IMG/VR virus record: IMGVR_UViG_3300025879_000084
Location: 1-27,108 of that record
DNA from: a virus
Length of the DNA: 27,108 nucleotides
Strand: one strand, 5' to 3'
In this document: in pieces, positions 253 to 25,246 of the stretch
Position numbering within the stretch: position 1 is the first letter of the stretch
Layout of the letters: each line of letters opens with the position of its first letter
Notes under the pieces: model-generated
What the model was told of the DNA's origin: nothing
The model's input: the letters and a program-made list of their open reading frames with translations, nothing else
Database searches by the model: none
Position numbers and translations under genes: made by a program

Positions 253-2130
253 TTAGTTTAGTATTTTAAACCATTCCTTGACTCTTTGGATGTCCTCATT
301 TAGTTCGTTACTCTTAGTCACTTTTTCGTTATAGTCTCTAGCTATTTCCTTGTTAGTTTCTATACATTCTTCTGGTGACATTTCATCCAGCTCTTCTAAG
401 GTAAAGAATTTTTTACTTACGTGTTCTTTTTTATCCAGTTCTATATTCTCTACATCGAATTCATTTGTGTGGAAAACATTTAACTGTACATTATCCATTT
501 CGTATGTTTTTAGTTTTTTAAATGATTCTGGTTCGATTTCTACACCAGCTTCTTCTTTAACCTCTCTAACTAAAGCTTCTTCTGGGGTTTCACCTTTTTC
601 TATATGACCACCAAGCATTCCGTATTTACCAGCGTTTGTTGTTTCCTCTGGACTTCTTTTAAATAATAATACTTTATTATCTATCACTATGAATAATAAT
701 GCTATTCTTTTCTTTTCCATATCTTCTTCATTAATGTTTTCGGTAATAGATTCATTCTTTTTAGTCTTACCCCATTTTTTACCTTTACCAGGTGTTCCGC
801 ATGATCCTGGTGTTGGTCTACAGGATGGGTATTTAGATCTTTTCTCACCTTTTTCTCTACCACAGGCCTTACATTTCTTTTTACCGTTTACTGTTCTACA
901 TGTATTACAGTCTACCCAACCTTTGTTACCACCACCACCTCTTCTGGAGAACCATCCGTGTAGTCCGTCTTTTTTCTCTTTTGAATAATCAGTTTTTTTG
1001 GCTTCGTTTATATCTTCTGGTTCTAATACGAATGCGCCAGCCACTTTTTCACCAGAGCGTATCATTTTTGCTGCTCTAGAGTAACCGTCTAATAGTTCAC
1101 CATTATATACCACTAAATCGTTGTATAAATCATCGGCATTAACTTCCTCGTCTTCGTATCTTTCATCGCCTGAATCGTAATATTCTTTAAAATCTTTATC
1201 GTTTAATAATTCTTTAAGATTTATTTGTTTTAGAACCCATCCGTCGTTAGGTATAATGAACTCATCTATGAAGTGGTCTGGTATATCACTTTCTTCTGGT
1301 GTTATGTCTTTGATGTGTTGTGCTACCTCTTCACCTGTAAATGTATTGTACTCATTTATATGATTTTTAACCCAACCTTCTAGTTCATGGATATTTGGTG
1401 CGTAATCTTCACCTTCCACGCTTGTTATAGCTTCGTGTGCCTGGTATAGTAGTTCCTTTATATCCTCTGGTGCCTCATTTATGTCATCTTCTTTTAGATC
1501 TTTCCATATCTTACCGTTTCTACATCTTACAATAGCTCCAGACCTATATGCTGAGGGTTTATCATATTTTCTTCTAGCTATCCTAAGGCATCTATCAGCT
1601 TTTGGTTTCTTTTCTTCAGTTAACGTGATTATTTGTTTTAACCTATTAACATTTTCATTAAGTTTTGGTGTATTGTCGTTACCGCATTTATGACAAACAT
1701 ATAAGTCATCACCACCGTCTTTAATATCCCAGCTCCAATCACATTTATTACATTCTATTTTGTCACCCACAACCTTTTCGGTTATTGTTTCTTCTGTACC
1801 CATATTTTTAGGTTCTCTGTACATATCTTCTTTGTGTGTAAAGTCTCTATTTTGACCTTTATTTTCAACAAAACCAAAGTCTTTATAGAATTTCTTTAAC
1901 CTATTCACATTACCTCCGTAACTGGATGATGGTGTTAGTGTTATCTTCCATCCGTCACCATCAGCTATCTTTATTAGGTCATTCATAAAGTCGGAACCCA
2001 CACCTTGATTTCTCATTGATTGTGGTACTATAAACCCAGTCAGATAAACACTCTTATCCTTTTCTTTTGTGTATAGTTCAAATCTTATGTCTGGATACTT
2101 GCTATCTAGTACGTTAAACGGGTTATTCAT
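253..2130 (-). CDS. 625-aa modular protein: GNAT, zinc ribbon, basic module, ParB-like, Cys-rich module, Nudix hydrolase
   Basis: Modules in order: a GNAT acetyltransferase (1-105, acetyl-CoA loop R40-NQGVG and the FYKDFGF strand); a zinc ribbon (C127, C130, C146, C149); a leader-like stretch LNENVNRLKQIITLTEE (157-173); a basic module with ARRKYDKPSAYRSGA (about 174-211) known from many phage hypothetical proteins (DUF5872-like, name from memory); a ParB/sulfiredoxin-like part (LLDGYSRAAKM near 350); a Cys- and Lys-rich module (C408, C411, C420, C423, C437, C444); and a Nudix domain (about 470-605) with an intact box G508-x5-E514-x7-REVKEEAGV. It ends with LNEDIQRVKEW. The short linkers TLTE, DINEA, DINEA and SITENINEE sit between modules and match the [LI]-x-E pattern of T4 prohead protease. 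It is probably a virion-internal polyprotein carrying enzymes. Start ATG 2130 has a TATTTATA element 12 bases upstream. Confidence 0.88.
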   Translation of the reverse strand: MNNPFNVLDSKYPDIRFELYTKEKDKSVYLTGFIVPQSMRNQGVGSDFMNDLIKIADGDGWKITLTPSSSYGGNVNRLKKFYKDFGFVENKGQNRDFTHKEDMYREPKNMGTEETITEKVVGDKIECNKCDWSWDIKDGGDDLYVCHKCGNDNTPKLNENVNRLKQIITLTEEKKPKADRCLRIARRKYDKPSAYRSGAIVRCRNGKIWKDLKEDDINEAPEDIKELLYQAHEAITSVEGEDYAPNIHELEGWVKNHINEYNTFTGEEVAQHIKDITPEESDIPDHFIDEFIIPNDGWVLKQINLKELLNDKDFKEYYDSGDERYEDEEVNADDLYNDLVVYNGELLDGYSRAAKMIRSGEKVAGAFVLEPEDINEAKKTDYSKEKKDGLHGWFSRRGGGGNKGWVDCNTCRTVNGKKKCKACGREKGEKRSKYPSCRPTPGSCGTPGKGKKWGKTKKNESITENINEEDMEKKRIALLFIVIDNKVLLFKRSPEETTNAGKYGMLGGHIEKGETPEEALVREVKEEAGVEIEPESFKKLKTYEMDNVQLNVFHTNEFDVENIELDKKEHVSKKFFTLEELDEMSPEECIETNKEIARDYNEKVTKSNELNEDIQRVKEWFKILN

Positions 2131-2213: not shown

Positions 2214-2723
2214 ATGGTTAATGGTTTATTAAATGAAGAAATAGAAAATATTCGTAATATGATGGGTATTTCTACACCTAATACTAAAGATGAGATTGAT
2301 ACGGTGACTATGGATGTACCTTTATTTATACGTACCCTCGAGTACGCTAAGGAAGATGCTAAGACTGATATGGATTTACATGATTTGGCTGAAAAAGCGA
2401 TATCTGGATCAAAGAATGGTGTTTTAACCATGGATGATTATGATATGTTAGTGGGTAACTTGAAACAATTAGCTGAAGTTGAGTCTAAAACCAGTACTGA
2501 TTTAACCTTCGCCAACCTAGATAAAGGTGTGATAGTGAGTGTTAATTTAGGTGATGGTTATGAGGATAGATTGGTTGATTGGTTATCTAATAACCATGAA
2601 TCTATTTTTAGTGATTTAGATTACCATGAAGGTGGTAGCGTATCTGTTTCACCAGAGGAAATAGTGTTTTCGGGTGATAATGGTATCTTTATTTTAGATA
2701 GAATTAATATTGAAAGAATATAA
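2214..2723 (+). CDS. 169-aa leader-bearing protein, probable virion/internal protein
   Basis: The protein opens with the leader MVNGLLNEEIENIRNMMGIS, shared with three neighbours. After a short polar linker comes a helical module (about 33-80, VPLFIRTLEYAKEDAKTDMD then LH..AE, ending in a TMDDYD stretch) that I recall as common in uncharacterised phage proteins. The C-terminal 70 residues are beta-rich and acidic. No catalytic motif is visible. It is followed one base later by the next leader-bearing gene, so the two form an operon. The role is inferred: the leader suggests packaging into the capsid and removal by a prohead protease. It has no transmembrane segment. Confidence 0.85.
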   Translation: MVNGLLNEEIENIRNMMGISTPNTKDEIDTVTMDVPLFIRTLEYAKEDAKTDMDLHDLAEKAISGSKNGVLTMDDYDMLVGNLKQLAEVESKTSTDLTFANLDKGVIVSVNLGDGYEDRLVDWLSNNHESIFSDLDYHEGGSVSVSPEEIVFSGDNGIFILDRINIERI

Positions 2724-2724
2724 T

Positions 2725-3999
2725 ATGGTTAATAAGAATAGTTTAAACGAAGAGTTATATAGAATCCATGAGATGATGGGTTTAACAGAGAATCAATTAG
2801 ATATGTTCGCTGATACTGAGGATGACACATCTGATGATTCTAGTGAAGTTTCTGATGATGAACTTATTGGTAAAAAGGTGATGGTTTATTATAACCTACA
2901 CAAACACGTTTTTTCTGTAACTTATAAAGGACTGGTTAAGTCTTATTCTGATTACGTTAAACTTAAAGACGTTGAGTTCAGAGTTAGACAGGGTGGAAAG
3001 GATAAGGTTAGGGATGAAAAGAGAAAAAATGTTCACGCATTTGTTATTGGTACTTTAGTGGATTATAAGGAACATCCTTCTGACGACATACCACAATCAA
3101 CTGGTTCTAAGGTTATAACATATAACCCTTATAAATACGATTCTTTTGTATATAAAAATGACGAAACACCTGTTTATATGGCTAAAGAAGTTGAGATGAT
3201 AAACCAACCATCCGATAAAATATTCCAGATAAACGAGTTAGAGGCTAAAGCTATCTCTGAGGAGTATGTGATGGAGGATTCTAATTTAAGGGGTTATATA
3301 TCTAAACTTAAATCTAAACTTGGTATAATAAAGGATAACTTAAAGCAGGAAGGTGTTGAAACTTTAGAAGCTATAACTAAGTTAATTAAAGCCGCTTCTG
3401 GTACTCAAAGACTTAGTGATGAGGATTTAAAAGAGATAGGTACGCAACTTAAGGACCTTCTAAAATTATCTGGTTTAGCGGCAATATCTATTTTACCAGG
3501 AGGTTTAATAGCAGCTATATTAATAAAGTTCTTTAAAAAGGAATCCTGGATAACCCCATCTTCTTTTAAAGATAACCCTGTTTCTATTTCTGAAGCATCG
3601 GTTGTTGGTTATTCTGATGATAAGATAGACGAATTTATAGTTGACGCTACTAGAGTTAGGGATGAAGCTATAAGTTCTATAGGTAAATATAAAAATATAG
3701 TGCTTAACAGTACTCTAATGGATATATACGACAACAAAGGTACTTTTAATAATTACCATGATGATATGAGATACGAATACAGTAAAACGTATAAGAAATT
3801 TCAGTATTATTATGATGTGGTTGACGCTTTCGATTTCAGAAATCTTTCTGATAAACTTAAGATGTTAGAGAGTATCGTTGAGGAATTAGATGACTTACAA
3901 TTAACTTTAGATGAATTGTCTGAAGTACTTGAAGAATTTATATATAAAACTAATTCATTAGAAAAATTACACTCTTTTAAGGGTTTGTTTAAAAATTAA
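2725..3999 (+). CDS. 424-aa leader-bearing protein with LETM1-like module
   Basis: I choose ATG 2725 rather than the in-frame TTG at 2710, because the shared leader then starts the protein (MVNKNSLNEELYRIHEMMGL) and overlap with the upstream gene is avoided. Residues 47-112 are a compact module (YYNLHKHVFSV, KRKNVHAFVIGTL) widespread in phage hypotheticals, followed by ITYNPYKYDSFVY. Residues about 204-275 resemble a LETM1-type domain: helices, then LKLSGLAAISILPGGLIAAI, a hydrophobic stretch that could insert in or bind a membrane. ISEE (177-180) and ISEA (288-291) bracket this module and fit [LI]-x-E protease sites. The C-terminal 130 residues are predicted helical or coiled coil. It is probably a virion cargo protein; the LETM1-like call is from family memory. 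Confidence 0.83.
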   Translation: MVNKNSLNEELYRIHEMMGLTENQLDMFADTEDDTSDDSSEVSDDELIGKKVMVYYNLHKHVFSVTYKGLVKSYSDYVKLKDVEFRVRQGGKDKVRDEKRKNVHAFVIGTLVDYKEHPSDDIPQSTGSKVITYNPYKYDSFVYKNDETPVYMAKEVEMINQPSDKIFQINELEAKAISEEYVMEDSNLRGYISKLKSKLGIIKDNLKQEGVETLEAITKLIKAASGTQRLSDEDLKEIGTQLKDLLKLSGLAAISILPGGLIAAILIKFFKKESWITPSSFKDNPVSISEASVVGYSDDKIDEFIVDATRVRDEAISSIGKYKNIVLNSTLMDIYDNKGTFNNYHDDMRYEYSKTYKKFQYYYDVVDAFDFRNLSDKLKMLESIVEELDDLQLTLDELSEVLEEFIYKTNSLEKLHSFKGLFKN

Positions 4000-4006
4000 A
4001 TAGGTA

Positions 4007-4771
4007 ATGATAAACGATATTTCGGTTAATAGTGGTGGACCTATAGATGGTACAACACAAGTAAATAATATAGCCATATCTGACGGTGAACATGATTATA
4101 GTTCTGGTGATTGGTATGGTGGTGTAGATTACTCAGATGGTTACGTTATAGTTAGTGATACCACTTCTGCTAACCTACTTGGTAGAACTACTGGTGGTGA
4201 TACTGGTATGGTTATCCCAGATAAGCCGACTTTTTGGAAATCTTCGGATTTAACTGACGATTCTTTAATAGGGTTAATTAACAAATTACCAGGTTCAACT
4301 GGTGGTCATACAACGGTTAGCGGGGCTAAAGCATCTATTTCTGGTACCTATGTCATTTTGAATGATCAAAAACCTATTGTTAGTGGGTATTCTTTTGAAT
4401 TGGTTACATTACCTTACGAACCACCATCGGCTGGTAGAGTTATATTCCCAGTATTGTCTGGTGCTGGTACTGAAGGTACGTTGAACCCTAACAAATTCGA
4501 TTTAGATTCCGTATATTGGAATGTGGCGGATATTGAGGGTGTTAATACGGAATCTTATTTCAATACTATAGCCAACGCTAATTATAGAATAACTTTTACT
4601 CAGAACGGTGACTCTGCTGTCTACACAGCCACTGGTTTAGGTTTGGAAGAAGGGAGTGAGTTGAGTCGTTCTTTTTTCATGGGTCCTGCAAACTCCGTGG
4701 TTTTAGTGACAGCGTCAGATGCTAATTTTGTTGCTAATCAATTGGTTACTATTTCTTTTGAGTTAATTTAG
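4007..4771 (+). CDS. 254-aa beta-rich virion-type protein (unknown)
   Basis: The gene starts 7 bases after the 424-aa gene and is the last of this operon. The protein is rich in Gly, Thr, Ser and Asp with many short beta strands (GDWYGGVDYSDGYVIVSDTT, then TTGGDTGMVIPDKPTFWKS) and lacks the leader, charged helices or enzymatic motifs. Such composition is typical of tail, fibre or capsid-decoration proteins, and I recall similar WYGGVDY...YVIVSDTT segments in marine phage structural proteins. Its last 23 bases overlap tail-to-tail with the minus-strand gene ending at 4749, and no terminator hairpin separates them. The function is not known. Confidence 0.8.
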   Translation: MINDISVNSGGPIDGTTQVNNIAISDGEHDYSSGDWYGGVDYSDGYVIVSDTTSANLLGRTTGGDTGMVIPDKPTFWKSSDLTDDSLIGLINKLPGSTGGHTTVSGAKASISGTYVILNDQKPIVSGYSFELVTLPYEPPSAGRVIFPVLSGAGTEGTLNPNKFDLDSVYWNVADIEGVNTESYFNTIANANYRITFTQNGDSAVYTATGLGLEEGSELSRSFFMGPANSVVLVTASDANFVANQLVTISFELI

Positions 4772-5306
4772 ATTCTTTTCTAATTAACTCGCCTAATACC
4801 TCTATTTTACCAACTAATTCCTGGAATTCTATCTCGTCTATGGTTATTTCACCTTCTGACGATGACATTAACTTGGTTAATAGTTCGTCATACTCTTTAG
4901 TTGCCTCCTCTACGTTGAATTCTCCTTTTGCTGCTTTATCATAGTAAGGTAACTTAACGTCGAAGTGGTGGTATGTTAATATTGATGAACCACCCTTTTC
5001 TTTTGCGTTATCTGCTATTTTTTTGGCACCAGACATTCTATTCTCCGAAAACTCTTCTAAAGAATCTTCTTTATCATCAGCTTCACCTAATTCTATAGGG
5101 TTACCTTTACCATGATTTGTTCTAATACTATACGAACTATTATTATCTACCACTGGGTTACCTGGACCAGATCTAGCCACACCAGAATCCCATTTTTTCT
5201 TAGCGGCCCCTGTAGGGTTTTGTGATTGTGGTGTACCCATCTCTTCTGAGATACCCATCATATCTTTTATTTTAGAAATCTCTTCTGTTAGTAAATCTTT
5301 TTTCAT
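4749..5306 (-). CDS. 185-aa leader-bearing protein with HHF(D) module
   Basis: It begins MKKDLLTEEISKIKDMMGIS, the shared leader, with ISEE right after it. Residues 31-70 hold a basic Gly/Pro/Asn-rich stretch (KKKWDSG, SGPGNPV, GKGNPI), a pattern I recall in many uncharacterised phage proteins. Residues 91-145 are a module with SGAKKIADNAKEKGG and LTYHHFDVKLPYYDKA, similar to the DUF5661-type family (name from memory). The tail is helical. The gene follows the 425-aa leader gene after 9 bases, forming a two-gene operon. It is probably a processed internal virion protein; no enzyme motif is recognised. Confidence 0.83.
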   Translation of the reverse strand: MKKDLLTEEISKIKDMMGISEEMGTPQSQNPTGAAKKKWDSGVARSGPGNPVVDNNSSYSIRTNHGKGNPIELGEADDKEDSLEEFSENRMSGAKKIADNAKEKGGSSILTYHHFDVKLPYYDKAAKGEFNVEEATKEYDELLTKLMSSSEGEITIDEIEFQELVGKIEVLGELIRKESKLTQKK

Positions 5307-5315
5307 GAAGTTAAA

Positions 5316-6593
5316 TTAGTTGATGTAGTTCGTTAATTCATATTTACCAGAATCCATTCTATAAAGTGATATCTGTAACATTTTGTTTTTTACTGGTTTA
5401 CCATTTTTACTTAGTTCTACACTGTAACTTACAGTTTGCCCATATTTAATATGTTCTGGGTAGAAGCTAGCCATATTAGCCTCATAACCTCTATTAAGTG
5501 CGTATTCTTCTGCTGACTCTAATGCACCAGACTGAGTTTCAAAATAGGTTTCTTGTGCGTAAGCTCTACCTTCATAAGTTCTATTCTCATAAACCTTACC
5601 TTCTTTACCACTTCTCATAGCTAACCATGATTGTTCTTCTTCTTTAATTTCACTTTCTAGTGTATCCATGGCTTCCATAGCTAAATCCCATCCACCTATA
5701 GCTGACTCTTCATCCAATTCCGCCACACTACAATGTTCATAACAATCTGAACATATATCACCCATAAAAATTGGGGCACCACAACAATCAGATTCACCTT
5801 CTTCATAAGCATCTAATGGATCAAAGGATTCATTTTTCTCGAAAGTTTCTGGGTCTCTATCTTGTTTGTTAGCGGTAGCGTAGTATATCGCCTCACCTTT
5901 CTTTTTTCCGTACTCGTCTTTAAATTTCTTTTTTACCTCATCATTTTCAGATACATCATCTTCTTCCCATTCTGTATAGTATACATTATATTTGTTATAA
6001 CCTATCTCTAGAATTTCGTCATCAGTTAAATCTTTGATACTTTCTCTGTTATAAGTCATTAACCCTTTTATGTAATCAACAACATCCTTTTCGTATTTAA
6101 AATATTTGTCTCTATCTTCGTGAACCCAACCTGCGTCCATACCTTCACCAGTTAATGAGCATTGTCTTGGTGATTCAGTTTCTTTTGGGGTTAAGTAATC
6201 GTCGGATCCCATTCTAGCATCATGAAACATCCCTATCTCGTTTACTGGATCTTCCGTTTCCTCTTCATTAAATATACTAAGGTCATTTAATTTATCCATA
6301 GTACCCTCAAAACCAGGTACTTCTGGTGAATCAGAGTTACTTAAGTCAGTGAAGAAATCTTCAACATCCTTATGTGTTACAGGTAAATTATCCTCAAATT
6401 CTTTACTAAAAACACTAGCTTCATCATAATCCATGTTATGTGTATTCATTAGATGTACGATAACGTCCTCCAATGAAGACATGTCTTCACTAACAGTTTC
6501 TTCACCTACATTATCTTCTTTAATAGTATTCTCGTTAATACCCATCATTTGTCTCATTCTAACGATCTCTTCGTTAATTACTAGCTTTTTCAT
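5316..6593 (-). CDS. 425-aa leader-bearing acidic modular protein with zinc-binding Cys cluster
   Basis: The leader MKKLVINEEIVRMRQMMGIN (1-20) is followed by a long acidic linker. A module around 140-160 contains RQCSLTGEGMDAGWV. Residues 220-250 hold KKKGEAIYYATANKQDRDPE, a short motif recurrent in phage and environmental hypotheticals. Residues 269-288 form a Cys cluster (C270, C271, C281, C284, C288), probably a zinc finger. The C-terminal 90 residues look like a separate beta/alpha module. The start at ATG 6593 is supported by the leader and by a TATTTATA element 16 bases upstream. The pieces look like a mosaic joined by acidic linkers. I infer an internal capsid protein; the biochemical role is unknown. 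Confidence 0.83.
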   Translation of the reverse strand: MKKLVINEEIVRMRQMMGINENTIKEDNVGEETVSEDMSSLEDVIVHLMNTHNMDYDEASVFSKEFEDNLPVTHKDVEDFFTDLSNSDSPEVPGFEGTMDKLNDLSIFNEEETEDPVNEIGMFHDARMGSDDYLTPKETESPRQCSLTGEGMDAGWVHEDRDKYFKYEKDVVDYIKGLMTYNRESIKDLTDDEILEIGYNKYNVYYTEWEEDDVSENDEVKKKFKDEYGKKKGEAIYYATANKQDRDPETFEKNESFDPLDAYEEGESDCCGAPIFMGDICSDCYEHCSVAELDEESAIGGWDLAMEAMDTLESEIKEEEQSWLAMRSGKEGKVYENRTYEGRAYAQETYFETQSGALESAEEYALNRGYEANMASFYPEHIKYGQTVSYSVELSKNGKPVKNKMLQISLYRMDSGKYELTNYIN

Positions 6594-6673: not shown

Positions 6674-7249
6674 ATGGGATTAAAGGAATTAGAGGTTAAG
6701 AGTTTGCTTAGTAAAATAAGGTCTATGGAGGATGAGTTAAATATGGTAGACTCTGTTCACGAAGAGTTATTATCTACGTTTATGAAAGAAGCTGAGGAAC
6801 TGGCTAAGTCTAGAGGCCTTAAACCTAAAAAGGATGAGATTATAACTCCTTTAGAGGCTGAGGTGTCTACTGAGGAAGTTATTGATGATGATGTTGAGAT
6901 GAGTAAAGATATAAAGAAGCTTTATCGTAAAATCGTCACAAAAACCCATCCAGATAAATTAATTGGGGTTGAGGAGGATGTTAAACTTAAGTTAACTAAT
7001 TTATTTGAATTGGCTGTTGAGGCAGTCGAAAATAAAGATTTATTACAACTTATCTCTGTCGCTGATGAGCTTGGTATACCTAATATAACTATAGATGAGA
7101 CCCATATACCTATTATTAAGCACAAGGTCAACATATTAGATGATAGACTAAAGAAATCTAAGGATTCTACGGTTTATGTTTGGTATTCTTCAGACGAAGA
7201 AACTAAAAAAAATATTTTAGAAAAATACTTGACTTTTATGTATTTTTGA
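6674..7249 (+). CDS. 191-aa J-domain (DnaJ-like) protein
   Basis: Residues about 75-130 contain a J-domain core: basic helix II KDIKKLYRKIVTKT followed directly by the essential H92-P93-D94 tripeptide, then helix III with LTNLFELAVEAV. J domains stimulate the ATPase of Hsp70 (DnaK), so this may recruit the host chaperone to virion assembly or to phage proteins. The N-terminal 60 residues are helical and acidic; there is no Gly/Phe region, zinc centre or peptide-binding C-terminal domain as in full DnaJ. It lies upstream of the fibre gene in the same direction, but a separate promoter-like element intervenes. It may cooperate with the ClpC-like ATPase at 22679. Confidence 0.8.
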   Translation: MGLKELEVKSLLSKIRSMEDELNMVDSVHEELLSTFMKEAEELAKSRGLKPKKDEIITPLEAEVSTEEVIDDDVEMSKDIKKLYRKIVTKTHPDKLIGVEEDVKLKLTNLFELAVEAVENKDLLQLISVADELGIPNITIDETHIPIIKHKVNILDDRLKKSKDSTVYVWYSSDEETKKNILEKYLTFMYF

Positions 7250-7260
7250 TTATAGCCAGA

Positions 7261-7268
7261 TATTTATA
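7261..7268 (+). promoter_or_regulatory. TATTTATA element and A-rich leader of the fibre gene
   Basis: GATATTTATATGTAA is followed by 47 bases of strongly A-rich leader (runs of AAAAAA and ACCAAAAAA) before ATG 7316. Long A-rich leaders without Shine-Dalgarno sites are typical of highly expressed Bacteroidetes genes. Confidence 0.4.
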
Positions 7269-7315
7269 TGTAACAATAATAAAATAATAAACTTTAAAAA
7301 AACCAAAAAAAACAA

Positions 7316-9706
7316 ATGGCAAATTTAAATTTAAGAAAGAACTTAACACAAGCGTTAAGTTTCACCCAATTAGATGGTAACTTCGAGTTCTTAGAAGACT
7401 TGAACACATCTTTGGAAACAAGAGTAAGTGCTGAAGAAGCTCTTAGTGCGTCGGTAGATGCATCTTTAGAGACAGTAATTACTGACAATAAAACTACTAG
7501 TGATGCTGCTGAGGCTTCATTAGATACTAGATTAGACAATTTTAGTGCTGATTTCGCTACAGACATCGAATTAAGTGAGGCTGTTTCTGTTGAAACTGCA
7601 AGAGCTATCGCTGCTGAAGGAGTTATCGAAGATAACTTGTCTACTGAATTAGTAGATAGAGCTGCTGCTGACTCAACGTTACAAGGTAACATTGATGGTG
7701 TTTCTACTGACTTAAGTGATTATGAAGCGTCTAATGATGCTGCATTATCAACTGAGGTTGCTGATAGAGCTTCTGCTGATACTCAATTACAAAACAACAT
7801 CGATGGTGTTGCTGGTGACTTAACTCAGGAAATTTCTGATAGAGAAGCTGACGTTGATGCTGAAGAAACTAGAGCTATCGCTGCTGAAGGTTCAATCGCT
7901 TCTGATTTAGCTGATTATGAAACATCTAACGATGCTGCATTATCAACTGAAGTTGCAGACAGAATTGCTGATGTTGATGCTGAGCAATTGAGAGCTGAAA
8001 CAGCTGAAGGAGTTATCGAAGATAACTTATCAACTGAATTAGTAGATAGAGCTTCTGCTGATACAGTGTTAGAAGGTAAAATTGTTACTGAAGAAACTGC
8101 AAGAATATCTGGAGATGCTTCATTGGCAACTAGAATAGATAACCTTAACAATGATTTTGCTACGGATATCGAAGTAAGTGAAGCTGTTTCTGTTGAAACT
8201 GCTAGAGCTATTGCCGCTGAAGGATCAATTGCTTCTGACTTAAGTGATTATGAAACGTCTAACGACGCTGCATTGTCAACTGAATTAGTTGCTAGAGCTT
8301 CTGCTGATACGGTATTACAAGGTAATATTGATGCTGAGGAAACTAGAGCATTAGCTGCTGAAGGTGTTATTGAAGATAACTTATCGACTGAATTAGTAGA
8401 TAGAGCTGCTGCCGATGTTGTATTACAAGGTAACATTGATGCTGAAGAAACTAGAGCTATCGCTGCTGAAGGTTCAATCGCTTCTGACTTATCTGATTAT
8501 GAAACATCTAACGATGCTGCATTGTCTACTGAAGTTGCTGATAGAATCGCTGACGTTGATGCTGAAGAAACTAGAGCATTAGCTGCTGAAGGTGTTATCG
8601 AAGATAACTTATCAACTGAATTAGTTGCTAGAGCTTCTGCTGATGTTGTGTTACAAGGTAACATTGACGCTGAAGAAACAAGAGCACTAGCTGCTGAAGG
8701 AGTTATTGCTGATAACTTATCAACTGAATTAGTGGATAGAGCTGCTGCTGACAACGATTTATCTACTGATATCACTGCTGAAGAGACTGCAAGAATATCT
8801 GGAGATGCTTCATTGACGACTAGAATAGATAACCTTAACAATGATTTCGCTACAGACATCGAAGTAAGTGAAGCTGTTTCTGTTGAAACTGCAAGAGCTA
8901 TCGCTGCTGAAGGAGTTATCGAAGATAACTTGTCTACTGAATTAGTTGTTAGAGCTTCTGCTGATGTTGTATTACAAGATAACATCGACGCTGTTGCTGG
9001 TGACTTATCTGATTATGAAACGTCTAACGACGCTGCATTGTCAACTGAATTAGTTGTTAGAGCTTCTGCTGATGTTGTGTTAAAAGATGACATTAGTGCC
9101 GTTGCTACCGACTTATCTGATTATGAAGCGTCTAACGATGCTGCATTGTCAACTGAATTAGTTGTTAGAGCTTCTGCTGATGTTGTATTACAAGATAACA
9201 TCGACGCTGTTGCTGGTGACTTATCTGATTATGAAACGTCTAACGACGCTGCATTATCAACTGAATTAGTTGCTAGAGCTTCTGCTGATACAGTATTACA
9301 AGGTAACATTGATGACGTAGAGTATTTAGCTGAGAACCCAAGATATATATTCGACGGTAATAAGCTTGATATAACTGGTGCATCATATGTGGTTGTTGGT
9401 TCTGCTGAAGCTATAATGGTCGTTGACGCGCCTGCTGTAACTAACGGGAACATCGACTTTACTGCTGCTACTGCTGGTACTATTAGTACTATAGTTATAG
9501 CTGATTTAGCTGGTGATAGTACTGGATCATCTGAATTTATAGTTAGATTCAACCAACTATTTGGTAACCCTTATGGTACTGCTGAACTAATCCTTCAAGA
9601 AGGTGAGTCTGCTCAAGTATATATGTTATCTACAGGTGTAGGTGTATTATTAGCGGTAAACAAAGCGGTTGCTTATGTTACTGAATACCCAGCTGACGGA
9701 AAATAA
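7316..9706 (+). CDS. 796-aa repetitive tail/capsid fibre protein
   Basis: The N-terminus MANLNLRKNLTQALSFTQLD with NFE following is the phage fibre start pattern (LRxxLxxALSxTxLDxNFE), shared with the collagen-like fibre at 25247. Residues about 40-660 are degenerate repeats of roughly 30 residues built from DNLSTELVDRAAADxxLQGN, AEETRAIAAEG and DLSDYETSNDAALSTE. They are rich in Ala, Asp, Glu and Ser, compatible with a trimeric coiled-coil shaft. The last 130 residues, from about NPRYIFDGNKLDITG, are beta-rich and non-repetitive and likely form the tip or trimerisation domain. A strong rho-independent terminator follows. It probably acts in host recognition or as a long virion whisker. Confidence 0.88.
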   Translation: MANLNLRKNLTQALSFTQLDGNFEFLEDLNTSLETRVSAEEALSASVDASLETVITDNKTTSDAAEASLDTRLDNFSADFATDIELSEAVSVETARAIAAEGVIEDNLSTELVDRAAADSTLQGNIDGVSTDLSDYEASNDAALSTEVADRASADTQLQNNIDGVAGDLTQEISDREADVDAEETRAIAAEGSIASDLADYETSNDAALSTEVADRIADVDAEQLRAETAEGVIEDNLSTELVDRASADTVLEGKIVTEETARISGDASLATRIDNLNNDFATDIEVSEAVSVETARAIAAEGSIASDLSDYETSNDAALSTELVARASADTVLQGNIDAEETRALAAEGVIEDNLSTELVDRAAADVVLQGNIDAEETRAIAAEGSIASDLSDYETSNDAALSTEVADRIADVDAEETRALAAEGVIEDNLSTELVARASADVVLQGNIDAEETRALAAEGVIADNLSTELVDRAAADNDLSTDITAEETARISGDASLTTRIDNLNNDFATDIEVSEAVSVETARAIAAEGVIEDNLSTELVVRASADVVLQDNIDAVAGDLSDYETSNDAALSTELVVRASADVVLKDDISAVATDLSDYEASNDAALSTELVVRASADVVLQDNIDAVAGDLSDYETSNDAALSTELVARASADTVLQGNIDDVEYLAENPRYIFDGNKLDITGASYVVVGSAEAIMVVDAPAVTNGNIDFTAATAGTISTIVIADLAGDSTGSSEFIVRFNQLFGNPYGTAELILQEGESAQVYMLSTGVGVLLAVNKAVAYVTEYPADGK
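7420..9310 (+). repeat. Degenerate in-frame repeats of the fibre shaft
   Basis: Blocks encoding LSDYETSNDAALSTELV and (A/V)RASADxVLQ recur many times. Some copies are nearly identical at the DNA level; for example a block near 8953-9060 recurs near 9180-9290. They are likely substrates for unequal recombination that changes shaft length. Confidence 0.75.
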
Positions 9707-12671: not shown

Positions 12672-13307
12672 ATGGAGATTAACGAAGTTTTTAACCCAAA
12701 TATGGAGGAATCCATTAAGAATAAAATAAACGAATTAAAGGATATACAAATCAAATTGGATGAAGCTCTAGCTTTATACAAAGAGTCTGTATCTGAATTG
12801 GAGGCTACTAAAAGCGAATTAGTACCAGAGGTTATGGCTATGTTTGATGGTCAGGTTGATCCAGGTAAAAAACTTAAGGTTGAATTAGATGGTTTGTTAG
12901 TTGAGATTACTCAGCAATCAGAAAGACTTACCACTTCTTATAAACAGGCGTTTGATACAGCTTTGACTAAAGTAAATGAAAATACCAAAAAAGTACTGAA
13001 CCAAATTTTAGAGGAGTCTAAAGTTGCTGGTAAAGTTAAGGGTAAACTTACTATAGACGGTTCTAAGGTATATGAAGGAGCGATTACTAATTGGTTTGGT
13101 TCTGTAAAGGATTGGCTTAAAAGAGCTTATGATAAGCTAACTGGCTTCTCTAATAAAGCTAGTGAAGGTATCGATGAGATCGAAGAAATGATTAAACAAA
13201 TGGAGGATGAAAAAGATGGTGAAATGGCTATGAAGAACTATGATGATATAGAGTCTGGGGCTGTTTATGAATCCATTAATAGAATGAAAACCATTATTAA
13301 TTCATAA
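12672..13307 (+). CDS. 211-aa coiled-coil protein with C-terminal leader-like tail
   Basis: The N-terminal 75 residues are heptad-like helices (IKNKINELKDIQIKLDEALA), then a central helical domain with TSYKQAFDTALTKV, and a motif WFGSVKDWLKRAYDKLTGF around 137-155. The last 13 residues, YESINRMKTIINS, resemble the I-x-R-I-K-x-[MI]-[MI] core of the leader found at the N-terminus of other proteins here, but placed at the C-terminus. It is a stand-alone gene between its own late-type element and a strong bidirectional terminator. It is probably a scaffold-like or internal virion component; no enzyme motif is seen. Confidence 0.78.
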   Translation: MEINEVFNPNMEESIKNKINELKDIQIKLDEALALYKESVSELEATKSELVPEVMAMFDGQVDPGKKLKVELDGLLVEITQQSERLTTSYKQAFDTALTKVNENTKKVLNQILEESKVAGKVKGKLTIDGSKVYEGAITNWFGSVKDWLKRAYDKLTGFSNKASEGIDEIEEMIKQMEDEKDGEMAMKNYDDIESGAVYESINRMKTIINS

Positions 13308-15399: not shown

Positions 15400-16029
15400 A
15401 TGGGTAAGAAAATCTATAAAATAACTGAATCTCAAATGAAGAGTATTTTAGAAAATAAGAAGTCTTCTAAAAATGATACTAAAGAACAGATATCTGAAGA
15501 TCAGTTAAAAAACATATTCGAGAGTTTAGCCGATAAGGTTGAAGAGTACGATAATTATAACTACCCAGCTGGAGCTGACGCAGATCCTAGCGCCCCATGG
15601 AATGATGATGGTGGTAGTACTAGACAGGGTGAGTACGTTAAGGGTGACATTGTTGGTGTTGGTTATGATGGGGATGAGATGCTATTGATGGATAAATCTA
15701 GTGGTAAATATTATTACACTATTAATGAAGCTATCACTGATGGTAAATATGATATATATGATGAGTTATCTGACTTTTTAGATATACCTCAAGAAGAAGA
15801 TGAAGATGAGGATGGTCGATATATGGTCGCTATAAACGATTGGAAGAGTTATATTGATCAAGGTGAACTATTAGGTGCTATGGCTAGTTATTTAAATAAC
15901 AGTAATGATATTGATTCTGGTGACCAAGAAGCTTATGAAAATGGTGATGTTTGGTTTATGGAAGTTAGTCCAGAGTCTATTGAAGGTATTGGTAGTGATA
16001 AATTGAAAAGTATGGTTAAATTTAATTAA
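15400..16029 (+). CDS. 209-aa acidic modular protein (YPAGADxDPxAPWN module), probable virion protein
   Basis: The N-terminus MGKKIYKITESQMKSILENK is a variant of the leader class (short basic start, I-T-E, amphipathic helix), with a second ISEDQLKNIFESL copy at about 31-43. Residues 53-68 contain NYPAGADADPSAPWND, a motif I recall from many phage hypothetical proteins. The rest is acidic, with a poly-Asp/Glu stretch near 130-140, then a helical C-terminus. It overlaps tail-to-tail by 8 bases with the 118-aa gene, and its terminator lies inside that gene. It is probably a processed internal protein; the function is unknown. Confidence 0.82.
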   Translation: MGKKIYKITESQMKSILENKKSSKNDTKEQISEDQLKNIFESLADKVEEYDNYNYPAGADADPSAPWNDDGGSTRQGEYVKGDIVGVGYDGDEMLLMDKSSGKYYYTINEAITDGKYDIYDELSDFLDIPQEEDEDEDGRYMVAINDWKSYIDQGELLGAMASYLNNSNDIDSGDQEAYENGDVWFMEVSPESIEGIGSDKLKSMVKFN

Positions 16030-16457: not shown

Positions 16458-18029
16458 ATGATTGTTACTAAAAAAGATATATTAGATTCATTAAACGAAG
16501 GGTTTTATAAAGAATACCCGTTAGAGGATATCGGGTTGTGGTATGGTGATTCTGATTATAAAGCTAGGGGTGGTGAAATGGTTTATATGACACCAGATGA
16601 GTTCTTATCGAAGGCTAAACCATTGGAGATGACTGATGAGACTAGGTCTAATATTAATGATCTTATCGCACATGTTAGTAATGGTGGTAAACTAGACCCT
16701 TTAACTTTATATTCGCTAGATAAGACCGATGTTAGGAATAGTGATGGTAGACATAGAGCTATAATGGCTATGCAAATAGGTATACGTAAGTTGCCTGTAT
16801 TGGATTTCACTAAATCTAACGGTGATGTTGATTTAGAGGTTGTTTCCGAATTATTCTCAATTTCACCAGAGTGTGAGGACCCTAGTTTTTATATATCAAT
16901 GGCTAAGGATAACTTCGGTGAACCTATGATGGAAAAAAAGAATGACATGTATAGTGTTAAGGTTAACCCTAAGTATAAAGATCTTTTTTTCGTATTTGAG
17001 GTTATTAACGATATGTACAACAATAAAGAGTTTGAATCACTATTTTCTGAATCAGAGTTCGTTTGTGAGGAGTGTTTAGAGTTAAAAATTGAAGAGAGAC
17101 TTAACGAGAAATTAGATGTTCTTTCTGATATGGTAGAGTTAAACGAAAGTATAACATATCATTTAGATAACAATATACCATTGATAGAAAATATTTATAG
17201 ACCTGGTAGTTATAAGCACATGGATTTAATTAGAGAAGCTAGAGAGATGTGGGAGAGAGGATCACTTAATTTAGACGGTTTTGATTCATTTCTTTTTGAA
17301 AATACTAGTCTAGGTACCTTTGGTGAGTATAATGGTCTTAAAGTACCCTTAGATCTCCCTATTTTAGCTGAACAGGGTTCAGATACTTCTTGGGAAAATG
17401 ACGAGGGTGAAAAGATCACTCTACAGGATATTTTAGTTATGACTAAAGATATACCTAAAAAGGATTATCCGACGGATAAATTAGCGGATGTAGTGTTAGG
17501 TTGGGATGGTAACCCTGAGGAGCTGGATAGAGTTGAACAGGTTGAAGTTTCCGAACAATACCCTATATTAATTATGGTTAACGAGGTTGGTGAGATTCAA
17601 TGGATTTTAGATGGTAACCATAGAGCTCAAAGAGCGTTGGGTTCTAATATGAAGACAATACCAGCTAAATTAATTAAACCTTCAGATTTGGATGCTAAAG
17701 CTAGAAAAGTTTTACTGGGTATTGTTGATGGTGTAAATGAGGCTGAATATAAAGGTAGGGATGTTAAATTAAACAAACCAAAGCGAGGTGGTTCTAAGAA
17801 GTTCTATGTTTACGTTAGGAAACCTAATGGTGGTATAAAGAAAGTTTCTTTTGGTGATACTACTGGTCTTTCTGTTAAACTAAACGACCCTAAGGCTAGG
17901 AAATCATTTGCGGCCAGACATGACTGTGCTAATAAGAAGGATAGAACTAAGGCATCATACTGGTCTTGTAGACTACCTAGATACGCAAGTTTATTAGGTT
18001 TAAAATCTAACTTTAGTGGGTACTGGTAA
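16458..18029 (+). CDS. 523-aa protein: two ParB-like domains plus C-terminal Cys/His basic module
   Basis: It starts MIVTKKDILDSLNEGFYKEY, a leader-like segment with LNE|G. ParB-like domain 1 (about 18-118) has NSDGRHRAIMAMQIGIRKLP (D96-G-R-H-R100). A Cys-containing helical linker follows (C203, C206). ParB-like domain 2 (about 298-410) has ILDGNHRAQRAL (D385-G-N-H-R389). The C-terminal module (431-504) carries KKFYVYVRKPNGGIKKVSFG and RHDC...YWSCR, a small zinc-like module (DUF5872/DUF6321-type, name uncertain) I recall from phage virion-associated proteins. VNE|AEYKG (426-432) separates the last two modules and fits a prohead-protease-type site. It is probably a packaged, processed multi-enzyme protein. 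Confidence 0.85.
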   Translation: MIVTKKDILDSLNEGFYKEYPLEDIGLWYGDSDYKARGGEMVYMTPDEFLSKAKPLEMTDETRSNINDLIAHVSNGGKLDPLTLYSLDKTDVRNSDGRHRAIMAMQIGIRKLPVLDFTKSNGDVDLEVVSELFSISPECEDPSFYISMAKDNFGEPMMEKKNDMYSVKVNPKYKDLFFVFEVINDMYNNKEFESLFSESEFVCEECLELKIEERLNEKLDVLSDMVELNESITYHLDNNIPLIENIYRPGSYKHMDLIREAREMWERGSLNLDGFDSFLFENTSLGTFGEYNGLKVPLDLPILAEQGSDTSWENDEGEKITLQDILVMTKDIPKKDYPTDKLADVVLGWDGNPEELDRVEQVEVSEQYPILIMVNEVGEIQWILDGNHRAQRALGSNMKTIPAKLIKPSDLDAKARKVLLGIVDGVNEAEYKGRDVKLNKPKRGGSKKFYVYVRKPNGGIKKVSFGDTTGLSVKLNDPKARKSFAARHDCANKKDRTKASYWSCRLPRYASLLGLKSNFSGYW

Positions 18030-19827: not shown

Positions 19828-20186
19828 TTTTTTAAAACATCTATATTTTCAGAATGACCAACATTTTCGTTGATTTGTTTAAACATCATATTTAAATGCT
19901 TAAGTGCTTCTGCGTATGATCTGTAAGAATGTTCGTGTATGTTTTGAACACCACTAATATATTCGTAACCAGATTCTTTTTTAACCTTTATGTAAACATG
20001 TTTTTCTTCCTGTACAATACCATATTCGGTACCGTCAGAGGCTAATGCTTCGTGTAAGACATCTGATGGTGTACCAGTTTTAGATACATTTTCATTCATA
20101 CTGTCTTTATTTATACCAGCAATCTCTAAAATTCTTAACAATTTTTCGTCTGGGTTTACTATTTTCTCTGAACCTACTGGTCTCAT
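19818..20186 (-). CDS. Upstream part of the frameshifted protein (122 aa if not shifted)
   Basis: It starts at ATG 20186 (MRPVGSEKIVNPDEKLLRIL..EIAGINKDSMNENV), a leader-class N-terminus with MNE|N and later INE|N sites. Residues 40-105 form a compact domain (YGIVQEEKHVYIKVKK, then SYRSYAEALKHLNMMFKQIN) that I recall from phage proteins longer than this one. Unshifted, it ends just after the A10 run as ..DVLKKKV. A -1 slip instead gives DVLKKKKSLTERYVLKIKG.. and continues to 19243 for 314 residues in total. A TATTTATA element lies 34 bases upstream. Confidence 0.8.
   Translation of the reverse strand: MRPVGSEKIVNPDEKLLRILEIAGINKDSMNENVSKTGTPSDVLHEALASDGTEYGIVQEEKHVYIKVKKESGYEYISGVQNIHEHSYRSYAEALKHLNMMFKQINENVGHSENIDVLKKKV
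19824..19833 (-). other. A10 slippery run (probable -1 recoding or slippage site)
   Basis: Ten consecutive A on the coding strand include A-AAA-AAA, suitable for ribosomal -1 frameshifting, and are long enough for RNA polymerase slippage. The zero frame stops 6 codon positions or fewer downstream (GTC TAA). An assembly error in the homopolymer is the alternative. Confidence 0.65.
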
Positions 20187-22678: not shown

Positions 22679-25183
22679 ATGCTATCTTTGTTTAAAACAA
22701 ATTATAATATGAAGGAAAGAATGACTAACGAACTTAGGGTGGCTTTTACAAAAGGGCAGTCTTTAGCGTTAAAATATGATGACTCATTACTTAGATTACA
22801 ACATGTTGTTTACGGTATACTAGTTACAGATAATATGGTTAGAGAAATAGTTAAAAATAAGGTAACTGATTTCGACTTACTTATAGATGACATGTATAAC
22901 CTAATAAAAAGAACGTCAGATGGTCTAGCTGATGGTTCTAGTACCATATTACCATTTGAAACTGAGTTACACGATGTAATAAGAAATAGTGTTTTGAAGA
23001 AAAAGACTGAAGAGTACGTGACAGTAGAAACTTTTTTTAAGATCTCAATGGAAGTAGATTCTGCTTTCGTTAAGTTGTTTAAAGATTTTGGTCTAACAAA
23101 AACATTTGTATATAGAAAAATAAAACAATTAACAAATAAAACAAATATGAATATAACACCGAACGAAGATGAGTCACCTAGAATTAGAAGGAAGACTAAT
23201 GAAAACTCTAAAAGTAAGACACCTATGTTAGATGGTTTTGGTAGAGACTTAACCAAATTAGCTTTAGAGGATGTATTAGACCCAGTTATAGGTAGATCTC
23301 ATGAGGTTGACAGGGTTTGTCAAATATTAAGTAGAAGGAAGAAGAATAACCCTATATTGATAGGGGACCCAGGTGTGGGTAAGACTGCTATAGCTGAGGG
23401 TTTAGCTATTAAGATAGCTAATGGTGAATGTCCTAGGACTTTGATCGGTAAACGAGTTGTAACATTAGATATGACTTCTTTAGTTGCGGGTACCAAGTAT
23501 AGAGGTCAATTTGAGGAGAGAATTAAATCGGTAATAGATGAGGTTAAGGAGAATACTGATGTTATTTTATTTATAGATGAGATTCATACCATAGTCGGTG
23601 CTGGTAATTCATCTGGATCTTTAGATGCTGCTAACGTATTTAAACCAGCTATGGCTAGGGGTGAAATACAATGTATAGGTGCTACCACTATAGACGAATA
23701 CAGAGAACATATCGAAAAGGATGGTGCTTTAGATAGAAGATTCCAAAAAGTTATGGTTAACCCAACTTCTTTGGAGGAAACTAAAGAGATACTTAAAAAC
23801 ATAAAGAATAAGTACGAAGATTACCATAAGGTTGAGTATTTAGATGAATCTATAGATGAAATTGTAAATCTAGCTGATAGGTATATAACCAACAGAGAGT
23901 TCCCTGATAAAGCTATCGATATTATGGATGAGGTTGGTTCTAGGGCTCAGGTATCAACTAAAACACCAAAAGAAATTAAAGATCTAGAATTAGCTATAAA
24001 GGAGATAAGAGATGAGAAGTCTAGTGTGGTTAAATCACAGAACTTTGAAAAAGCTGCTGGTTTAAGGGATAAAGAGAAGAAATTATTAGTTAAGTTAGAA
24101 GAAGCTAATGTTTCTTGGAGATTGAGTATTAATGAATCTAGGGTGGTTATCAAACCAGAAATGATTTCTAATGTTGTTTCTATGATGACTGGTATACCTG
24201 TTAGTAGGGTAACCGAATCTGATATAAATAAACTACTTAAAATGAGTGATACTTTGTCTGGTTCAGTTATTGGTCAAAGTGAGGCTATCGAAAAGGTTGT
24301 GTCCTCTATAAAAAGAAATAAAACTGGTTTTAGAGAACAATCTAAACCGATAGGTTCTTTCCTTTTTATTGGACCTACTGGGGTTGGTAAAACCGAATTA
24401 GCTAAGTCTTTAGCTGAAAGTGTTTTTGGTTCTTCTGATTCTATAATAAGATTGGATATGTCTGAATATTCAGAAAAGTTTAATATAAGTAAGATTATAG
24501 GTGCCCCTCCTGGATACGTTGGTTATAACGAGGGTGGTCAGTTAACTGAGAAAGTTAAGAATAAACCTTACTCCCTAATACTTTTTGATGAGATAGAGAA
24601 AGCTCACCCAGATATTTTCAATGTTATGTTGCAATTACTGGACGAGGGTTTTCTTACTGATGCTAATGGTAGAAAGATTAACTTCAAAAATACGTTAATC
24701 ATAATGACTTCCAATATAGGATTGAAAGAGGTTCAGGATTTCGGTACGAAAATGGGGTTTAGTGATTCTTCTTCTAAAACAGATGATTTAGAGAATATTA
24801 AGAGTATAATCGATAAGAACATGAAGCGTACTTTTAAACCAGAATTTATTAACCGTTTAGATGAGATAATACATTTTAATTATTTAAGTGAAGATGATAT
24901 AACTAAGATTATTGATATACAAATTAAGAATTTAGCTAAAAGGTTATCAGAAAATGGTTTTAAGCTTAGAGTCGATAAAAAAACTAAGTTATTCATTTTA
25001 AATGAAGGGTATGATAAGATTTATGGTGCTAGAGAAATAAATAGGACGATACGCAAGTATATAGAGGACCCTATATCAGATGAGATGTTAAATAAAAGAT
25101 TACCTAAGTCTGGTTCTATATCTATAACTATGAATGTTAGTTTGGGTAGACCGAAAGTAACTCTTAAGGTAGAAAAATTTTAA
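22679..25183 (+). CDS. clpC: ClpC-like AAA+ unfoldase (834 aa)
   Basis: Clp/Hsp100 protein with a divergent N-domain (1-150), a D1 AAA module with Walker A GDPGVGKT (229-236) and Walker B ILFIDEIHT, a short middle region with a UVR-like motif (455-470, NFEKAAGLRDKEKKLL), and a D2 module with Walker A GPTGVGKT (565-572), Walker B LILFDEIEKAH and sensor TSNIG. The UVR and short middle region favour ClpC over ClpB. The M692-G693-F694 tripeptide aligns with the ClpP-docking loop ([LIV]GF) of ClpC, so it may feed substrates to a host ClpP; I see no ClpP here. The start may instead be M11 (22709). It is an unusual phage gene: probably used in virion assembly or to degrade host proteins. Confidence 0.93.
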   Translation: MLSLFKTNYNMKERMTNELRVAFTKGQSLALKYDDSLLRLQHVVYGILVTDNMVREIVKNKVTDFDLLIDDMYNLIKRTSDGLADGSSTILPFETELHDVIRNSVLKKKTEEYVTVETFFKISMEVDSAFVKLFKDFGLTKTFVYRKIKQLTNKTNMNITPNEDESPRIRRKTNENSKSKTPMLDGFGRDLTKLALEDVLDPVIGRSHEVDRVCQILSRRKKNNPILIGDPGVGKTAIAEGLAIKIANGECPRTLIGKRVVTLDMTSLVAGTKYRGQFEERIKSVIDEVKENTDVILFIDEIHTIVGAGNSSGSLDAANVFKPAMARGEIQCIGATTIDEYREHIEKDGALDRRFQKVMVNPTSLEETKEILKNIKNKYEDYHKVEYLDESIDEIVNLADRYITNREFPDKAIDIMDEVGSRAQVSTKTPKEIKDLELAIKEIRDEKSSVVKSQNFEKAAGLRDKEKKLLVKLEEANVSWRLSINESRVVIKPEMISNVVSMMTGIPVSRVTESDINKLLKMSDTLSGSVIGQSEAIEKVVSSIKRNKTGFREQSKPIGSFLFIGPTGVGKTELAKSLAESVFGSSDSIIRLDMSEYSEKFNISKIIGAPPGYVGYNEGGQLTEKVKNKPYSLILFDEIEKAHPDIFNVMLQLLDEGFLTDANGRKINFKNTLIIMTSNIGLKEVQDFGTKMGFSDSSSKTDDLENIKSIIDKNMKRTFKPEFINRLDEIIHFNYLSEDDITKIIDIQIKNLAKRLSENGFKLRVDKKTKLFILNEGYDKIYGAREINRTIRKYIEDPISDEMLNKRLPKSGSISITMNVSLGRPKVTLKVEKF

Positions 25184-25213
25184 GTAAAAACTAAAACTTA
25201 ACGCAGTTGCGTA

Positions 25214-25221
25214 CTATTTAT
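25214..25221 (+). promoter_or_regulatory. TATTTATA late-type element before the collagen-like fibre gene
   Basis: GTACTATTTATATGTG ends 25 bases before ATG 25247. A short palindrome (ACGCA/TGCGT) sits just upstream. Confidence 0.38.
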
Positions 25222-25246
25222 ATGTGTACTAAAATTACATAAATAA

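Follow-up and report, generated by a model that had tools for sequence, protein, structure and literature searches.

A recurrent peptide tag on unrelated phage proteins as a candidate head-targeting signal resembling the scaffold tail

In phage T4, the internal proteins IPI, IPII and IPIII, as well as Alt, carry a capsid-targeting sequence (CTS) that is processed by gp21. Residues 4 and 7 of the CTS are needed for targeting and residues 8 and 10 for cutting, gp21 cuts after L/I-x-E, and the internal proteins co-purify with gp22 (PMC9026906). Alt, an ADP-ribosyltransferase from which an N-terminal propeptide is removed, is the classic parallel to the proteins considered here (PMC9026906, PMC5694885, PMC5512222). 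In phage P1, N-terminal residues direct DarB, and a reporter, into the head (PMC9024508), while fusion to the C-terminal coat-binding part of the scaffold loads cargo in P22 (PMC9962691). Injection has been predicted for the polyvalent proteins of phages and conjugative elements (PMC5512222). Here we describe a leader shared by four proteins of a 27-kb virus record (IMGVR_UViG_3300025879_000084, positions 1 to 27,108; hereafter the window) and recurring in related phages. We propose, with a probability of roughly 0.75, that this leader is the capsid-targeting sequence of a T4-type head and that it copies the tail of the scaffold.

The tag resembles the T4 CTS in being a short N-terminal peptide on unrelated proteins that ends in [LI]xE, and in the ADP-ribosyltransferase domains among its putative cargo, Alt being such an enzyme in T4; an S77 (gp21-like) prohead protease and a gp23 head are encoded by relatives. 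By sequence it does not belong to the CTS family, being unlike MKTYQEFIAE by eye; it also differs in matching the C-terminal tail of the scaffold, in appearing at C-termini and internally, and in covering many more cargo families. Nonetheless, its sequence features suggest that it works like the CTS. The consensus is strong here, whereas none among Dar proteins is reported in the accessible text of PMC9024508, a contrast drawn from the published description. As in P22, cargo would enter the procapsid carrying the scaffold's C-terminal part (PMC9962691), but the P22 case is a laboratory construct in another head system, whereas here the arrangement is apparently natural, extends to many proteins and includes a putative cleavage site. 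By analogy, the present tag would join a T4-type cut site and P22-type scaffold-tail loading in nature.

Under the mechanism that we infer, the helix of the tag (RMKxMMG here, RMQxLAG in a sister clade) would take the site of the scaffold's C-terminal helix on the inner shell or core, and the tagged protein would thereby be co-assembled into the prohead. The S77 protease would cut after the [ILV]xE adjoining the helix, on its downstream side in N-terminal tags and on its upstream side in C-terminal tags. The freed cargo would remain with the DNA, probably to be ejected into the host. If true, this would explain at the level of sequence how cargo could be selected by a T4-like head, in that the cargo bears the scaffold's own tail. 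Many anonymous phage genes would become predicted head cargo, likely injected effectors, from sequence alone, and the tag would represent a natural self-removing packaging signal akin to the engineered ones of T4 and P22. The proposal is directly testable in immuto, a Flavobacterium phage that is in culture; published virion proteomics of immuto were sought and not found. Neither the leader nor scaffold-tail mimicry is named in the open-licence literature searched, including the accessible text of PMC3012670, PMC5694885, PMC9024508, PMC5512222, PMC9026906 and PMC9962691, an absence that is weak evidence.

Among the 32 mechanically called open reading frames (ORFs) of the window, the rule [LI][NT]EE[IL]xx[IM]xxMMG[IL] opens four proteins that have no other mutual similarity:

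2226..2273, plus strand: N-terminal tag LLNEEIENIRNMMGIS of the 169-amino-acid (aa) protein (gene 2214-2723, ATG at 2214)
2740..2793, plus strand: tag SLNEELYRIHEMMGLTEN of the 424-aa protein (gene 2725-3999, ATG at 2725), putative cut after LTE
5241..5294, minus strand: tag LLTEEISKIKDMMGISEE of the 185-aa protein (gene 4749-5306, ATG at 5306), putative cut after ISE
6528..6581, minus strand: tag VINEEIVRMRQMMGINEN of the 425-aa protein (gene 5316-6593, ATG at 6593), putative cut after INE

The strict rule matched precisely these four ORFs; when the window proteome was shuffled 2,000 times, it matched nothing. Three of the four leaders have [LI]xE after the helix. The initial annotation, made from the letters of the window, had placed leaders at 2214, 2725, 5306 and 6593 on otherwise dissimilar proteins. 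All four are present, and the dissimilarity is borne out by a best blastp E of 1.1 between different proteins past the first 24 residues. The genes, which it had described as adjacent, are not strictly so: a 254-aa ORF lacking the leader (4007-4771) intervenes, and two genes lie on each strand.

Homologues of 19 of the 32 window ORFs were found in the related record G003 (299 kb) and of 19 in G010 (58 kb). The S77 prohead protease, gp23 and the leader occur together in G003 and G012 (126 kb), so that the protease and capsid protein presupposed by the initial annotation are indeed encoded by relatives. In a set of 20 records, four (G003, G012, G015 and immuto) passed the family cut-off for S77 and for gp23, the remainder being mostly shorter fragments. 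Of 17 long gp23 records, 16 contain S77, as do 7/20 leader-bearing records versus 1/20 contigs drawn by an arbitrary pattern. The lineage's gp23 was strong in the same seven leader-bearing records, plus one negligible match; the control contigs gave one strong match and one distant one. Between S77 and gp23, relatives encode an acidic ORF of about 285-600 aa, which we call the putative scaffold because of this position and its acidic composition. PHROG returned no family for the acidic proteins of G003 and G012 and only weak ones of unknown function for that of immuto.

Two clades are considered here, the window's own (clade 2, RMKxMMG leaders) and its sister (clade 1, RMQxLAG leaders). By hhalign, the scaffolds of the two clades align tail to tail over 111 columns (98%, E 2e-13), and on this alignment they are homologous. 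Judged by sequence, the leader copies the C-terminus of the scaffold-like protein, strongly in clade 1 and moderately in clade 2. Tails taken from the best 80 gp23 loci of each scan were readable in 79/80 and 77/80, and [ILV]xE precedes them in 74/77 and 79/79. The typical clade-1 tail is RMQKLAGIIK, with [ILV]xE a few residues upstream, and the typical clade-2 tail is [LI]xE-SKTYENPQFLRMKDLMSKIK; RMQKLAGIIK ends pair with RMQxLAG leaders and RMKDLMSKIK ends with RMKxMMG leaders. In immuto, SEQVSRWQKLAGIIK terminates the scaffold, and the starts of two further proteins read MKKQILSEQFRRMQKLAGIITES and MKKQILSEQFKRMQFLAGIITES. The leader-bearing proteins of this phage are gp083 (111675-112139) and the product of 25061-25456. 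Regular expressions derived from the window found no leader in immuto; the sister form became evident from its scaffold tail. Three proteins of G026 start MNKEFLKMQKLAG[IL]ITE, and its scaffold ends FARMQQLAGLRK. Tagged genes also lie within head clusters: in G028, whose scaffold ends SRWQMLAGINKF, a MAQFINEAKRWQQLAGIITE protein is encoded between scaffold and protease, and in G038 a tagged gene lies between portal and protease. The Microcystis phage Mel-JY01 has a clade-1-type scaffold tail, with no matching leader noticed by eye in a filtered list covering about 121 of its 190 kb.

A profile built from scaffold tails only was run on 10 clade-1 and 13 clade-2 records. At a score of at least 20, clade 1 yielded its 10 scaffolds and eight further matches, seven of them N-terminal leaders and the eighth an internal copy (G026 19155, ALNESFLKMQKLAGVITEAQ). 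At a score of at least 9, scaffolds removed, clade 1 gave 8 N-terminal matches versus 2.3 per column-permuted profile and 5 C-terminal matches versus 0.9 (several of them not tag-like), while the middle of proteins gave 15 versus 15.0. In clade 2, the same threshold returned 10 scaffolds, one being a second copy in G003, together with 8 N-terminal matches versus 1.0 (G003 245598 among them is not leader-like), 3 C-terminal versus 1.1 and 8 middle versus 6.9. Tags thus match the scaffold C-terminus of their own lineage above chance, clearly in clade 1 and moderately in clade 2. In G023, where the scaffold ends RWKKLANLK, it is the end of another protein, RWAKLANIKK, that matches (score 14.3).

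Leader type also follows lineage. RMQ-type leaders number 7 in 1,404 clade-1 ORFs and 0 in 1,930 clade-2 ORFs, and RMK-type leaders 0 and 14, respectively, the window, G008, G009 and G010, for which no head genes are available, being counted in clade 2 on the strength of leader or homology. Leader type equals scaffold-tail type in 17/17 records or loci holding both, on the RMQ side in immuto, G015, G026, G028, G037, G038, L354 and L401, and on the RMK side in G003, G012, G030, G034, G042, G043, G044, G046 and G049. Some tails diverge, as in G043 and G044 (AIKDLMRRIS).

Several observations weigh against the proposed copying or its link to the head. The 17/17 agreement may stem from one ancestral split and not from 17 independent events. 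The match in clade 2 is moderate, and only the 425-aa protein's leader among those of the window reaches a profile score of 9 (9.5). The G038 tail, RMMEIAGL, diverges, and the second core position of clade 1 (M/W) does not track strictly, as the scaffolds of immuto and G037 have RW and their leaders RM. Long records picked by gp23 alone carry a matching N-terminal leader in only 4 of 15 cases (clade 1 2/8, clade 2 2/7), and the six leaderless clade-1 records still have S77, scaffold and gp23; such records may use other tags or none. The 169-aa protein's leader (GISTPN) has no [LI]xE directly after the helix. Neither an S77 protease in the 27-kb fragment nor head genes in the window's ORF list came to light, and 13 of the 20 leader-bearing records, many being fragments, have no detected S77. 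Direct homology of the acidic scaffold to T4 gp22 is unsupported (hhalign probabilities of 12.6% and 0.4%). In the T4 sequences, the gp22 C-terminus is unlike the CTS, with no C-terminal tail mimicry evident.

The best-surviving alternative, which we consider unlikely, is a head-targeting tag that, like the T4 CTS, attaches to a core component, its likeness to the tail reflecting no more than a protease site shared beside an amphipathic helix. The T4 CTS itself, a short N-terminal peptide ending in L/I-x-E (PMC9026906) and not a copy of the gp22 C-terminus, speaks for this, as does the moderate tail likeness in the window's clade. Such an account fits poorly with clade 1, where immuto's SEQVSRWQKLAGIIK and SEQFRRMQKLAGIITE are alike residue by residue across about 12 positions, well beyond an [IL]xE site, and with the way leader type follows scaffold type.

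The initial annotation had also pointed to a search beyond the window and to a cleavage pattern beside the leader, and both lines gained support from fixed-codon patterns, silent on the following residues, that were scanned over 2.9 million IMG/VR viral contigs. RMQxLAG gave at least 111 distinct matches in at least 119 loci (at least 66 C-terminal, at least 37 N-terminal and at least 8 elsewhere). Classed by ending, most of the C-terminal matches among the 60 listed have a scaffold-type ending, and at least three are short chance ORFs; one N-terminal match, thioredoxin-like by eye, is also chance. The 85 distinct matches of E[EQ]IxRxKxMM, from 109 loci, comprised 69 at N-termini (chance accounting for at least one), 3 at C-termini and 13 elsewhere. 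[ILV]xE starts within six residues past the helix core in 33/37 N-terminal RMQxLAG proteins, among the matches listed, and in 61/69 of the E[EQ]IxRxKxMM proteins, counts that include homologous and so non-independent proteins; the background is 14.7% of 2,667 ORFs. Where residues are inserted between helix and site (GISLNE, GIRSLNE, GLQPINE), the site is retained, as would be expected for a protease site. The cargo is diverse: at least 103 tagged proteins of at least 80 aa fall, with the leader removed, into at least 74 clusters (blastp E 1e-3), 60 of them singletons. Most clusters have no known domain, the exceptions being ART-PolyVal (2/74 representatives), GNAT (2), DUF3990, thioredoxin and a PHROG deoxyribonucleotidase; when ten tagged proteins were searched singly against Pfam, no domain passed E 0.01. 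In 84,980 cellular genomes, neither of two exact leader patterns, both narrower than the viral ones, was matched. The tblastn search of single leaders against the phage collection found nothing even at E 10, the queries being too short to inform.

These results also bear on a second, improbable alternative, in which the leader is a module for interaction or localisation that has no relation to the head, for instance one that docks proteins to a host or replication complex. The tagged genes of G003 and G012 do lie away from the head cluster, 11 of the 15 gp23-selected records lack this leader type, and another class of leader (ITE type, below) opens 33/346 ORFs of G030, which is many for head cargo. 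Such a module would leave the scaffold-tail match, the [ILV]xE junction, the tagged genes inside the head clusters of G028 and G038 and the association with S77 without an explanation.

Among homologues, the tag is swapped for other peptides. The domain of the 185-aa protein could be aligned in 13 homologues, seven of which have the present tag. Two others have ITE-type starts (G029, MKIILTEEQLKKAIK; G033, MKIIITESQLKKLNLE), two have T4-like short peptides (a slash marking the junction: MKLFDVILE/A in G003 and MRLLELLRE/A in immuto), G009 has MIKFSDILLE/S with a zinc ribbon, and G020 has a longer start with ILKE/A. Replacement peptides on orthologous cargo domains mostly end in [IL]xE. Other cargo domains swap tags too, and some homologues have no evident tag (G015 2095 and G003 216403, the latter being a homologue of the Phage_L5_gp82 domain that the 424-aa protein has at residues 54-166 in the numbering of a 429-aa reading). 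AlphaFold2 models residues 3-16 of the 185-aa protein as a short helix of low confidence, residues 21-77 as disordered and residues 83-184 as a helical domain with mostly good confidence, the layout expected of a detachable tag. A structure search with this model gave no PDB match at E 0.001 and one viral match of unknown function.

These exchanges qualify the initial annotation's view of a head-cargo signal independent of that of T4. As a head-cargo signal the leader stands as a supported interpretation, its link to the head strengthened by the lineage-wise match to the scaffold tail, and in the sequence data none of the findings named in that annotation as refuting was encountered; its independence holds for the sequence, less so for the system, as relatives carry T4-like short peptides on the same cargo domain. 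A very improbable third explanation, that the leaders are functionless 5' gene ends spread by homologous recombination, would fit the modular swapping of N-termini between orthologues, but it is largely refuted by the window leaders, which share a codon at 20 of 37 identical-residue comparisons (18.8 expected from codon usage, so that protein-level selection and not recent DNA copying keeps them alike); protein-level conservation across at least 74 clusters and the C-terminal and internal copies also speak against it.

Taken further, the proposal that the leader copies the scaffold tail points to a loading code, for and against which we see the chances as evenly balanced. Any protein could be sent to the head by a grafted copy of the scaffold tail, or by interchangeable peptides at the N-terminus, the C-terminus or a domain boundary, each with a built-in protease site. 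Tags would be exchanged freely, cleavage within the head would split multidomain chains into separate effectors, and the different proteins packaged by some phages may number in the tens.

Further tag-like sequences occur elsewhere in the window:

1615..1662, minus strand: internal tag-like copy LNENVNRLKQIITLTE / LNENVNRLKQIITLTEE in the 625-aa protein (gene 253-2130)
256..303, minus strand: C-terminal tag LNEDIQRVKEWFKILN / ELNEDIQRVKEWFKILN of the 625-aa protein, with [LI]xE preceding the helix
13266..13304, plus strand: C-terminal tag YESINRMKTIINS of the 211-aa protein (gene 12672-13307)
15418..15456, plus strand: start of the 209-aa protein, KITESQMKSILEN / KIYKITESQMKSILEN, a separate leader class (ITE type)
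16458..16499, plus strand: possible short leader of the 523-aa protein, MIVTKKDILDSLNE / MIVTKKDILDSLNEGF, a weak, loose resemblance by eye
20091..20141, minus strand: weak tag-like helix near the start of the 122-aa protein, LLRILEIAGINKDSMNE, with a profile score (7.7) inside the shuffled-control range

The leader had been described as N-terminal, with variants in several of these proteins. The four window starts agree with the former, which we amend to include C-terminal and internal tags. The variants hold for the C-terminus of the 211-aa protein and for the inside and end of the 625-aa protein, whereas the 209-aa protein belongs to the other class and the 523-aa protein is only loosely similar. 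In G003, the homologue of the 211-aa protein ends KLNEAINRFKKIINYI, and that of the 625-aa protein has a tag-like sequence near its start and another at its end. A regular expression for C-terminal copies, composed after examples had been seen, matched 9 protein ends in 23 records versus 0.05 expected from internal windows, one match (G003 222337) looking like chance. The 625-aa protein contains a NUDIX domain above the Pfam cut-off and GNAT-like families below it, so that it joins several disparate effector domains in one chain, as polyvalent proteins do. This combination and the ART-PolyVal domain in 2/74 cluster representatives are the points of likeness to that group, for which domains are defined and no terminal targeting peptide is described in the accessible text of PMC5512222.

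The head genes of the relatives show some peculiarities of their own. In G043 (L687 7266-9077) and G049 (L690 7552-9354), the ORF that contains S77 is about 600 aa long, roughly 2.5 times as long as its counterparts in relatives. The S77 protease ORF of G029 (45830-46513) ends SDRMKNLMSKLDTYLGK, which is scaffold-tail-like (profile score 13.7), and the protease may recruit itself through this related tail. G003 has, distant from its intact head cluster, a second gp23-like fragment with an internal TGA (225309-225419) and a second partial scaffold-like ORF (236866-237375). The control contig with S77 (L691, G072) has a neighbouring ORF (7049-8452) that ends RAELRRLAGIE, perhaps another variant of the scaffold tail. 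In T4, the CTS MKTYQEFIAEA and the gp22 N-terminus MLKEQLIAEA (L079, L083) share [FL]IAEA by eye, and judging from this motif T4 might mimic the other end of its scaffold.

Other leader classes accompany the present one. The ITE-type class (approximately M-K-[KI]-[IV]-x-[LI]-T-E-[SE]-x-[LQ]..., in the window at 15400-16029) occurs in clade-2 phages, many of those listed having a later [IV]xE. By a loose regular expression whose matches are not all certain, such starts were found among ORFs of at least 70 aa in 33/346 (G030), 23/127 (G034), 22/168 (G012) and 17/128 (G033); if these leaders are also head tags, the cargo list would be very long. The idea that gp23 is followed directly by a conserved head gene with an ITE-type tag was considered and rejected (6/70 loci). 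A third class, MKKS[EQ]LxxIIxEEI, opens several proteins in immuto, G022 and G026 as well as small head-cluster genes (immuto 123355-123576; G022 67188, between protease and scaffold), which suggests copying of a core protein's N-terminus. Finally, a fourth class, approximately MENFDLKKFLVENKLTxNSKxLxE, opens four immuto proteins (1803, 103806, 117631 and 118632).

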